Source: Bacillota bacterium (GTDB lineage Bacteria > Bacillota > Clostridia > UBA1381). From it: DNA of 41,425 nucleotides. A model generated the notes under the pieces. The model searched no databases. It saw nothing but the letters and a program-made list of their open reading frames with translations, and had not been told where the DNA came from. Positions 5,583-8,415 of this stretch are shown here, piece by piece. Made by a program: the position numbers and the translations under genes. Where the stretch lies: NCBI GenBank assembly GCA_029007725.1, contig JAQXIJ010000050.1, positions 1-41,425 on the forward strand, written 5' to 3'. The first letter of the stretch is position 1. Each line of letters opens with the position of its first letter.

Positions 5583-5628
5583 CCTATACTTAGATGACCG
5601 ATTCACCAACGGTTTCTCAGTACATGGG
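5583..5628 (+). promoter_or_regulatory. Hairpin leader of rpsO, probable S15 autoregulatory element
   Basis: A long imperfect stem-loop precedes rpsO. CCTAT (5583-5587) pairs with ATGGG, ACT with AGT, AGA with TCT, and CCG with CGG across the loop ATTCACCAA. S15 is known to repress its own translation through structured leaders in many bacteria. The first arm, CCTAT, can also pair perfectly with ATAGG at 5640-5644, which overlaps the Shine-Dalgarno, so an alternative fold or pseudoknot is possible. Confidence 0.6.
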
Positions 5629-5655
5629 GATAATTAATCATAGGAGGTGAAATTT

Positions 5656-5922
5656 ATGACTAAAGAGCGCAAGCAGGAAATTATCACTACTTTCGCTACT
5701 CACGAAGGGGATACAGGTTCTCCCGAGGTTCAGATTGCTTTGCTTACAGAAAGAATCAATCACTTGAATAACGAACACCTGAACTTCCACAAGAAGGATA
5801 ACCACTCTAAGAGAGGTTTGCTTATGATGGTTGGTAAGAGAAGAAATCTTATGAACTATCTTAAGTCACAGAATATCGAAAGATACCGTGCTTTAGTTGC
5901 TAAGCTGGGTCTTAGAAAGTAA
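5656..5922 (+). CDS. rpsO: 30S ribosomal protein S15
   Basis: An 88-residue S15, which binds 16S rRNA helices 20-22 and is an early assembly protein. The family signature is complete: [48 protein letters not shown] and a C-terminal [12 protein letters not shown]. The ATG at 5656 follows TAGGAGGTG with good spacing. A GTG three codons upstream lies within the ribosome-binding site itself and is rejected. The gene sits directly before pnp, as in E. coli and B. subtilis. Confidence 0.97.
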
Positions 5923-5933
5923 TTTAGATATGT

Positions 5934-5966
5934 TATGGGCAAGCATTGTATGTTTGCCCATATTTG
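5934..5966 (+). terminator. Hairpin after rpsO
   Basis: TATGGGCAA (5934-5942) pairs perfectly with TTGCCCATA (5954-5962) around an 11-base loop. The following T-tract is weak (TTTGC), so read-through into pnp is likely, as in the classic rpsO-pnp operon. Confidence 0.6.
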
Positions 5967-5972
5967 CATATG

Positions 5973-6080
5973 GGAGATATGATATTTAGCACATAAATAG
6001 AACTCATAACGCAATCTTGTGGGCTGTATTTATCTGCTAATATAATATCTCCGGTCAAAAAAAATTATTATAAGGAGATA
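5973..6080 (+). promoter_or_regulatory. pnp leader: long hairpin with alternative anti-Shine-Dalgarno pairing
   Basis: A nearly continuous stem of about 30 bp spans 5973-6052. GGAGATAT (5973-5980) pairs with ATATCTCC (6045-6052), TTAGCA (5986-5991) with TGCTAA (6035-6040), ATAAATA (5993-5999) with TATTTAT (6027-6033), and CTCATAA (6003-6009) with TTGTGGG (6017-6023, two wobbles). The loop is 7 nt. The 3' arm bases TATCTCC (6046-6052) are also a perfect complement of the pnp ribosome-binding site GGAGATA (6074-6080). The 5' arm and the Shine-Dalgarno therefore share one sequence and can compete for one partner. In E. coli, pnp is autocontrolled through RNase III cutting of a leader stem; a comparable switch here is inference. 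Confidence 0.7.
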
Positions 6081-6084
6081 AACT

Positions 6085-8415
6085 ATGTTCAGAAAATTTG
6101 AAACAGAACTTGCAGGACGTCCGCTCGTTATCGAAACCGGCAAAATGTGCTGTCTTGCAAACGGTCATTGCCTTGTTCGCTATGGCGATACAGTGGTTAT
6201 GGTCAACGTAACAGCATCAAGAACACCGAGAGAAGGTATAGACTTCTTCCCTCTTTCGGTTGATTACGAAGAAAAACTATATTCCGTAGGTAAGATCCCG
6301 GGCGGATATATCAAGCGCGAATCTAAGCCATCCGAAAAGGCAATCCTCACATCACGTGTTATCGACAGACCTATAAGACCACTGTTCCCAGCCGATCTAA
6401 GAAACGACTGTACAGTCGTTGCAACAGTTCTTTCCGTCGAGCAGGACAATCCTCCCGAAGTTGCCGCAATGATAGGTACTTCTATAGCGCTTTCCATTTC
6501 GGATATTCCTTGGAATGGTCCGATAGGCGCAGTTTGGCTCGGACTTGTTGACGGTGAGTATGTTATAAACCCGACTGTTGCTCAGCGAGAAAAGTCAGAA
6601 ATGCACGTTACAGTTGCAGGAACAAAGCAAAAAATTGTAATGATTGAAGCCGGCGCAAACGAAGTAGACGAGCAGGTTATGCTGGACGGTATTAAATTTG
6701 CACACCATGAAATCAAAAAAATCTGTGATTTTGTTGAATCAATCAAGGAAGAAATCGGAAAGCCGAAATTTGAATACACACCGCACACCATCAATCAGGA
6801 TTTATGGAACGCTGTTAAAGATCTTGAATATGAAAACATTAAGCACGCACTCGACACAGATGATAAAAACGTTCGTGACGAAAGAATTGGTGTAATTGAA
6901 GACGAAATTACCGAAAAGCTTTCAGAGCAGTTCCCTAATCTTTCGGAAACTCTCGGCGAGCTGTTATATAAAATGCAGAAGGAAATCGTAAGAGCATGGC
7001 TGGTTGCCGGCAAACGTGTAGACGGCAGAGCTCTCGACGAAATCAGACCACTGTCCGCAGAGGTTGACCTTCTTCCTAGGGCTCACGGTTCGGGACTTTT
7101 CACTAGGGGTCAGACCCAAGTTATGACCGTTGCAACTCTCGCGCCTCTTGCCGAAATGCAGAAGCTGGACGGCATCGATACTGAAGAAACAAAGAGATAT
7201 ATGCACCACTATAACTTCCCTTCATATTCTGTAGGCGAAACAAAACCTTCTCGCGGTCCCGGACGACGTGAAATCGGTCACGGAGCACTGGCTGAGCGTT
7301 CACTCGTTCCTGTTCTTCCGTCAGAAGAAGAATTTCCGTATGCAATCAGAACGGTTTCTGAGGTTCTTTCTTCAAACGGTTCTACATCACAAGGATCTGT
7401 ATGTGGTTCTACACTTGCTCTTATGGCTGCAGGTGTTCCGATCAAAGCTCCAGTTGCAGGTATCTCATGCGGACTTATTACAACCGACAACGGCTTTACA
7501 ACAATGGTAGATATCCAGGGGCTTGAAGATTTTTATGGTGAAATGGACTTTAAAGTTGCCGGAACAAAGAAAGGTATCACTTCAATCCAGGTTGATATAA
7601 AAAATGACGGCTTAACATATGAAGTAATAAACGAAGCTTTTCAAAAAACAAAAAAAGCGAGAAAATATATAATCGATAACGTGCTTTTGAAAGCTATTCC
7701 GGCAGTACGCGACCACCTGTCACCATATGCTCCCAAGGTATCAACAATGCACATTGACACAGAGAAAATCCGTGACGTTATCGGTCAGGGCGGCAAGGTT
7801 ATTCAAAAAATTGTCGCTGACACCAATGCGAAAATCGATATTGAAGAAGACGGTACAATCCATATATTTGCCGTCGATCAGGCTTCGGGCGATGCTGCAA
7901 GAGCAGCTATTGAGCTTATTGTAAAAGAACCTGAAGTCGGTGAGGTTTACGAAGGTACAGTCAAGACAATCACACCTTTTGGTGCATTTGTTGAAATCCT
8001 TCCGGGTAAGGACGGTCTTTGCCATATTTCAAAGCTTTCCTATGACCGCGTAGAAAAGGTCGAAGACGTTGTTGAAGTTGGTCAGAAACTTACCGTTAAG
8101 GTTATGGAAATTGACGAAAAGACGGGCAAAATAAGCCTGTCACACAAGGATTTGCTTCCAAAGCCTGATGGTTATGAAGAAAAGAGAAGTTCCGACAGAC
8201 GTATGCAGGAAAACAGACAGTCCGAGCATAGACCATACGGCAGCAGCAGACCGGATTACAGACGAAACAATATGCACAAATCCGAACCAAGGCCTGATCA
8301 GCAAAGGCAAGAGCCGGAAAAGCCAGTAGCCCCTCTTCCTGTAACAGAGGAAAAGAATCCTGGAGATAAAAAAGAAGAAAAAGGTGGTTTATTCAGCAGA
8401 CTTTTAGGTAAATAA
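6085..8415 (+). CDS. pnp: Polyribonucleotide nucleotidyltransferase (PNPase)
   Basis: A 776-residue 3'-5' phosphorolytic exoribonuclease of mRNA decay. It has two RNase PH domains (residues ~10-230 and ~300-540, with the FFPLSVDYEEK and GRREIGHGALAER motifs) linked by a helical domain. A KH domain follows (DVIGQGGKVIQKI, ~555-610), then an S1 domain (EGTVKTITPFGAFVEI, ~620-690). Beyond the usual ~700 residues there is a ~85-residue disordered tail rich in Arg, Pro, Gln and Lys that ends GGLFSRLLGK. Such tails occur in some Clostridia and may bind RNA or helicase partners. The start follows AAGGAGAT at 6072-6079, inside the switch-like leader. Confidence 0.96.
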   Translation: MFRKFETELAGRPLVIETGKMCCLANGHCLVRYGDTVVMVNVTASRTPREGIDFFPLSVDYEEKLYSVGKIPGGYIKRESKPSEKAILTSRVIDRPIRPLFPADLRNDCTVVATVLSVEQDNPPEVAAMIGTSIALSISDIPWNGPIGAVWLGLVDGEYVINPTVAQREKSEMHVTVAGTKQKIVMIEAGANEVDEQVMLDGIKFAHHEIKKICDFVESIKEEIGKPKFEYTPHTINQDLWNAVKDLEYENIKHALDTDDKNVRDERIGVIEDEITEKLSEQFPNLSETLGELLYKMQKEIVRAWLVAGKRVDGRALDEIRPLSAEVDLLPRAHGSGLFTRGQTQVMTVATLAPLAEMQKLDGIDTEETKRYMHHYNFPSYSVGETKPSRGPGRREIGHGALAERSLVPVLPSEEEFPYAIRTVSEVLSSNGSTSQGSVCGSTLALMAAGVPIKAPVAGISCGLITTDNGFTTMVDIQGLEDFYGEMDFKVAGTKKGITSIQVDIKNDGLTYEVINEAFQKTKKARKYIIDNVLLKAIPAVRDHLSPYAPKVSTMHIDTEKIRDVIGQGGKVIQKIVADTNAKIDIEEDGTIHIFAVDQASGDAARAAIELIVKEPEVGEVYEGTVKTITPFGAFVEILPGKDGLCHISKLSYDRVEKVEDVVEVGQKLTVKVMEIDEKTGKISLSHKDLLPKPDGYEEKRSSDRRMQENRQSEHRPYGSSRPDYRRNNMHKSEPRPDQQRQEPEKPVAPLPVTEEKNPGDKKEEKGGLFSRLLGK

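Follow-up and report, generated by a model that had tools for sequence, protein, structure and literature searches.

The intergenic region between rpsO and pnp in the Clostridia genome studied here raises the question of how a single RNA strand might serve two pairings. The 3' arm of a long hairpin in the pnp leader is complementary to the 5' arm of that hairpin and also to the ribosome site of pnp, the gene for polynucleotide phosphorylase (PNPase). In E. coli, the autoregulation of PNPase is textbook knowledge, although debate continues on how the cut leader lowers translation. The window is the whole stretch of DNA that was analyzed, 41,425 nt in length.

The rpsO-pnp locus and its leader hairpin

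A sequence-only reading of the window had proposed a hairpin of about 30 bp and 80 nt in the pnp leader. Folding of positions 5960-6110 indeed gave a stem-loop of 80 nt with 32 pairs at this place (Table 1), with a folding energy of -34.2 kcal/mol for the segment compared with -20.7 ± 3.5 kcal/mol for dinucleotide shuffles (z -3.8, 0/200). The heptamers GGAGATA, TATCTCC and GGAGATA, assigned by that reading to the two arms and to the pnp Shine-Dalgarno (SD), were located to the exact base, and the 3' arm complements both copies. In the predicted fold of the window, the pnp ribosome site is unpaired when the hairpin is intact, and when the downstream half is folded alone TATCTCC pairs with GGAGATA.

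Table 1. Positions of the features of the rpsO-pnp region within the window
Feature	Position	Strand	Basis
rpsO (ribosomal protein S15)	5656..5922	+	ORF; upstream of the element in 60/60 flank-checked loci
First intergenic hairpin after rpsO, ATGGGCAA/TTGCCCAT	5935..5961	+	sequence; T run absent
pnp leader hairpin (conserved element)	5973..6052	+	fold, CM matches, covariation
5' basal arm GGAGATA, same sequence as the ribosome site, partner of 6046-6052	5973..5979	+	sequence and fold
Core 5' strand: UUAGC (5986-5990), A5991, unpaired C5992, AUAAAUA, unpaired G6000	5986..6000	+	alignments A1/A3
Core 3' strand: G6026, UAUUUAU, C6034, U6035, GCUAA (6036-6040)	6026..6040	+	alignments A1/A3
3' basal arm TATCTCC, putative switch strand, complement of 5973-5979 and 6074-6080	6046..6052	+	sequence, TIR coevolution
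pnp Shine-Dalgarno GGAGATA, alternative partner of 6046-6052	6074..6080	+	sequence, folding
pnp (polynucleotide phosphorylase, 776 aa), ATG at 6085	6085..8415	+	ORF; TIGR03591 above cut-off

The first intergenic hairpin, which also folds in congeners L083-L087 and L089, may be terminator-like or protect a 3' end. A pattern scan identified 0 terminator-like sites, this hairpin included. The pnp leader hairpin is likewise a strong stem between two genes, as a transcription terminator or attenuator would be. However, no U run follows position 6052, the scan was negative here as well, and the core described below is retained when long inserts fill the apical loop, so that a terminating function of the leader hairpin is barely credible.

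The sequence-only reading had itself pointed to a weak TTGCCC/TATGAT pair from which transcription might start inside the stem. With such a promoter (5954-5983), pnp transcripts would lack the full 5' arm and the hairpin would normally not be made. The pair matches the consensus at 9/12 positions with an 18-base spacer, but promoter-like sites occur at chance level (2 compared with 2.1 expected in shuffles), congeners keep neither the spacing nor the -10, and the stem is under strong RNA covariation. A start at this site is highly improbable.

A short frame (ATG ATA TTT AGC ACA TAA, at about 5979) was rejected, as it is not kept in congener L084. Elsewhere in the window, a bacterial small SRP RNA was identified at 2324-2423, upstream of a dnaX-like gene (Rfam RF00169). 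The region 5' of rpsO (5585-5645) contains GACCGATTCACCAACGGTTTCTCAGTACATGGGGAT, with a similar CCGAATCACCAACGGCATCTCAGCGGAGGG in the relative L005; it is a candidate S15 autoregulatory leader, with no Rfam match at the gathering score.

Covariation, core and distribution of the element

The pnp leaders of relatives contain the same kind of hairpin with most of the sequence changed. A family alignment of 43 sequences (A1) and a wider alignment of 41 sequences (A3) were prepared. The A1 consensus reads, from the base upward, a clade-variable basal stem, UUUAGCA, a 1x1 mismatch, AUAARYA and a G.G mismatch, above which the upper stem covaries freely. In A1, 94% of the cells are paired and covariation is 0.454 versus 0.161 in shuffled alignments; in A3, the corresponding values are 93.6% and 0.653 versus 0.188, with ≤0.15 in slid registers. 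Two-sided changes were found at 14/19 pairs in A3, while UUAGC/GCUAA is almost invariant. By this covariation among aligned sequences, the hairpin stem is established as an RNA structure.

The core itself was surveyed in 137 clusters. UUAGC/GCUAA is identical in 121/137, and the pair adjoining UUAGCA/UGCUAA is non-Watson-Crick in 128/137, mostly G.G or G.U. Since it is Watson-Crick in just 9 clusters, conservation extends to a non-standard pair in a fixed position. In the window, C6034 faces C5992 and G6026 faces G6000, according to A1, A3 and the core survey. A second conserved mismatch, this one G.G (window 5993-6033), sits higher in the stem, 7 bp from the first in the window's family and 6 bp in several other clades. 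Nine leaders (L005, L142, L143, L140, L124, L070, L016, L028 and L168) have long repeat-like inserts in the apical loop, in some cases 100-250 nt in length. Both core arms are retained in them, and the apical loop is thus dispensable. A conserved non-Watson-Crick pair of this kind suggests a specific place of protein contact or of cleavage, and the core that contains it is probably the site where RNase III recognizes or cuts the duplex. The genome has an RNase III gene (TIGR02191, 254.6 bits, above cut-off).

The ends TTAGCA and TGCTAA of the core resemble the CIRCE operator, TTAGCACTC-N9-GAGTGCTAA. This candidate was rejected: the window holds TTAGCACAT...TATCTGCTAA with 45 nt between the arms instead of N9, and the element has arms 30-60 nt or more apart, a compensatory upper stem, and a mismatch where CIRCE is a perfect repeat. 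Judged by these features, the pnp leader element is an RNA hairpin and not a DNA operator.

Distribution was followed with two covariance models, R1 trained on the window's family and R2 broader. The window element scored E 1.6e-12 with R1 and 2.7e-13 with R2, with a strong match solely at rpsO-pnp. R1 matched in 52/70 family genomes at E 0.1, one of the matches (G032) being weak and away from pnp; several of the misses were leaders with apical inserts of 100-250 nt and retained core arms (L005, L142, L143). It also recovered pnp leaders of other orders, outside its training set. R2 matched in 74/391 genomes of the class, in 207/396 sampled genomes of the order of G273 (same class, different order), and in 7/398 genomes of a phylum sample, where all but one came from the window's class.

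The first 60 flank-checked loci all lie at rpsO-pnp, 59 with both genes and 1 at a contig end with rpsO only. Among the next locus sets, 6/69 have no pnp downstream, and all six belong to the weaker matches. Off-target matches (G112, G211, G1056 and others) likewise have no pnp downstream; those that were aligned are mostly near-perfect inverted repeats which score on both strands and are probably terminators. The position of the element is near-exclusive to pnp. Near-perfect inverted repeats away from pnp, again probably terminators, were also matched on both strands in L361, L362, L364 and L365; by eye from sequence, the L361 match is near MOSC-like and radical-SAM cofactor genes and the L362 match near a phosphoesterase-like gene.

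No Rfam 15 family reached its gathering score for the window element, and a permissive search returned chance-level microRNA-type matches only. While a pnp leader hairpin is known as a kind, the variant with the conserved core is absent from Rfam and is regarded as new. Other Clostridia (L044, L055, L046, L049, L036) have different pnp leader hairpins, for example UUUGUGUUUGAA/UUCAAAUACGAAAA or UUUAGGU..GUAGCUUGUA/ACAAUCUAAA; in L055, the 3' arm also matches its own SD (CGCUCC/GGAGCG).

Coevolution of the 3' arm with the initiation region

Conservation of the exact GGAGATA duplication, on which the sequence-only reading had staked its idea, was not found in relatives. Among 8 congeners, the window counted, the 3' arm is TATCTCC in 8/8 and the 5' arm GGAGATA in 7/8. 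The SD reads GGAGATA in the window alone and GGAGA-A/G in the remaining 7, so that the genus shares GGAGA only and the alternative pairing extends over 7 bp in the window and 5 bp in the congeners. The exact repeat was rejected as a conserved feature; what persists while the sequence changes is complementarity. In the window, the duplex of the 3' arm with the translation initiation region (TIR) has -10.2 kcal/mol, within the 5th-25th percentile range of random arm/TIR pairs (-12.2 to -8.9). Every CUCC is complementary to every SD, so a single 7-nt match is unexceptional, and its significance rests on the relatives.

For comparison among leaders, the 3' basal arm was taken as the 20 nt after GCUAA and the TIR as bases -20 to +5 of pnp. 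In the family, own arm-TIR pairs beat swapped ones with a genus-level permutation p of 0.0003. Over 145 clusters (238 leaders), own pairs reached -9.43 versus -7.06 kcal/mol for swapped pairs (z -14.6). The reversed-arm control in these clusters gave z -3.9 and is thus not fully null, which means that part of the effect is composition. When the SD core was masked, z was -7.0, with -2.9 for the reversed-arm control, and the 3' arm paired against codons +6 to +30 gave z -1.4. Relatedness makes leaders statistically dependent, and a comparison was therefore also made across 72 disjoint nearest-relative pairs. The own TIR was better in 57/72, with a mean gain of 3.6 kcal/mol (p 2.6e-8), and the reversed control had a gain of 1.1 (p 0.002). 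The nearest-relative result is the safest figure, since the 145 clusters still share ancestry.

Leader segments upstream of the hairpin showed no own-TIR effect (z 0.6 and -0.5), and the rpsO leader at equal distance gave z 0.7, whereas pnp of those species gave -9.7. The segment from the arm to the TIR has an MFE of -9.2 with the own and -6.7 with swapped TIRs, the own being lower in 114/141 (p 5e-17). Predicted ribosome-site accessibility is 0.65 with the hairpin intact, 0.44 without the 5' arm and 0.53 with swapped TIRs; a cruder test on the accessibility of the whole downstream half gave a weak own-versus-swapped difference (p 0.06). Sequence likeness to the own TIR is seen in the 5' basal region (z 5 to 6) but not in the 16 nt that lie past the hairpin. 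Of the 3'-arm nucleotides matching the TIR in 73 strong cases, 85% are also paired with the 5' arm, which makes the hairpin and the masked structure mutually exclusive.

Individual leaders illustrate how the match is kept. Changed but matching sequences are CUUGUUUCUCC with GGAGGAACAAG in L274, GAAAAUCUCC with GGAGGUUUUC in L202, and GUUGCCUUU with GGAGGCAAU in L126, and in genus g10 the pairing spans the start codon. The effect is weaker in leaders without the core (z -3.3), and g2, L010 and L256 have no usable arm-TIR complementarity. In G021 and G052, some 220 nt or more of inserted sequence lies between the hairpin and the ribosome site, which indicates that close coupling of the two is not essential everywhere.

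Both pairings that had been expected to covary in related Clostridia do so, the stem in A1 and A3 and the arm-TIR pairing across the 145 clusters. The suggestion that the 3' arm is selected for both the 5' arm and the ribosome site is borne out by strong coevolution, with little or none in the control segments. Sequence comparison thus shows that the 3' basal arm has two coevolving partners, the 5' arm and the initiation region.

A possible switch and its relation to known systems

From these results, we infer a switch in which the 3' strand has a dual use. As long as the message retains the 5' strand, the hairpin would stand, the pnp ribosome site would be free and pnp would be translated. 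If that strand disappears, its 3' partner would fold forward onto the ribosome site and block it. The trigger would most likely be a cut of the duplex by RNase III, after which PNPase could remove the 5' strand from the new 3' end and so bring its own production to a halt. RNase III has a site in the rpsO-pnp hairpin of both E. coli and Streptomyces (PMC5872136), and in E. coli PNPase regulates its own message through digestion of an RNA that is duplexed with it (PMC10362022). This reading, with cut, removal and autogenous shut-off, is given a probability of about 0.52.

The core is conserved as sequence beyond pairing, as expected of a binding site, and the main rival is therefore that a protein bound at the core alters the equilibrium of hairpin and masked structure while the 5' arm stays in place. 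Such a protein could be PNPase via its KH/S1 domains, RNase III in a non-cutting mode, or another double-strand binder. Indeed, E. coli PNPase also represses itself independently of its nuclease activity, by binding (PMC10362022). However, RNase III recognition alone could account for the core, and melting such a very stable hairpin would be costly; binding without removal appears rather unlikely.

The switch by cleavage and removal can be put in a wider form. Oscillospirales-type Clostridia would have an as yet uncatalogued cis-regulatory RNA whose 5' strand mimics the pnp initiation region, and PNPase would sense its own level by the rate at which it destroys the mimic and frees the anti-initiation strand. 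This form is tentative, at just under even odds; if true, an exonuclease would be the reader of this RNA switch. Such a mechanism was not described for Clostridia in the open-licence literature searched, and an earlier description elsewhere is possible. The coevolving 3' arm and ribosome site offer a concrete, testable mechanism of translational shut-off, and a large group of gut bacteria gains an RNA element that Rfam lacks.

In translational attenuators such as the ermC leader, one strand picks either an upstream partner or the ribosome site. There, ribosome stalling swaps the partner, whereas in the pnp leader nuclease removal or protein binding would be the likely cause. The pnp leader also has no conserved leader peptide, unlike ermC-type attenuators.

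Closer relations are found at the same locus in other bacteria. In Streptomyces coelicolor, an intergenic hairpin likewise lies just 5' of pnp and is cleaved there by RNase III; its rpsO-pnp locus has four promoters, two of them intergenic, and the likeness is by description only (PMC5872136). In E. coli, where PNPase autoregulation was described (Jarrige 2001; Robert-Le Meur and Portier 1992/1994; as cited in PMC10362022, PMC5872136 and PMC3997798), a shared terminator-like hairpin is followed by a long double-stranded hairpin before the pnp start. The window shares with this type of leader the rpsO-pnp location, the long hairpin and an RNase III gene. The same gene order and two-hairpin layout (PMC5872136) would fit a purely E. 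coli-like course, in which a cut by RNase III and erosion of the duplex by PNPase destabilize the message, without any role for 3'-arm pairing to the ribosome site. The E. coli duplex is described mainly as protection against RNase E. This course leaves the coevolution of the 3' arm and the initiation region unexplained, and is considered clearly unlikely. E. coli itself has no such complementarity, as the pairing of its 3' arm with its own TIR (-4.2 kcal/mol) is not better than with unrelated TIRs (-4.7). In this respect the E. coli leader differs from that of the window, as the sequence-only reading had supposed, and the E. coli stem, GGCTAATGA/TCATTAGTC, also does not contain the UUAGC/GCUAA core pair that is present in the window.
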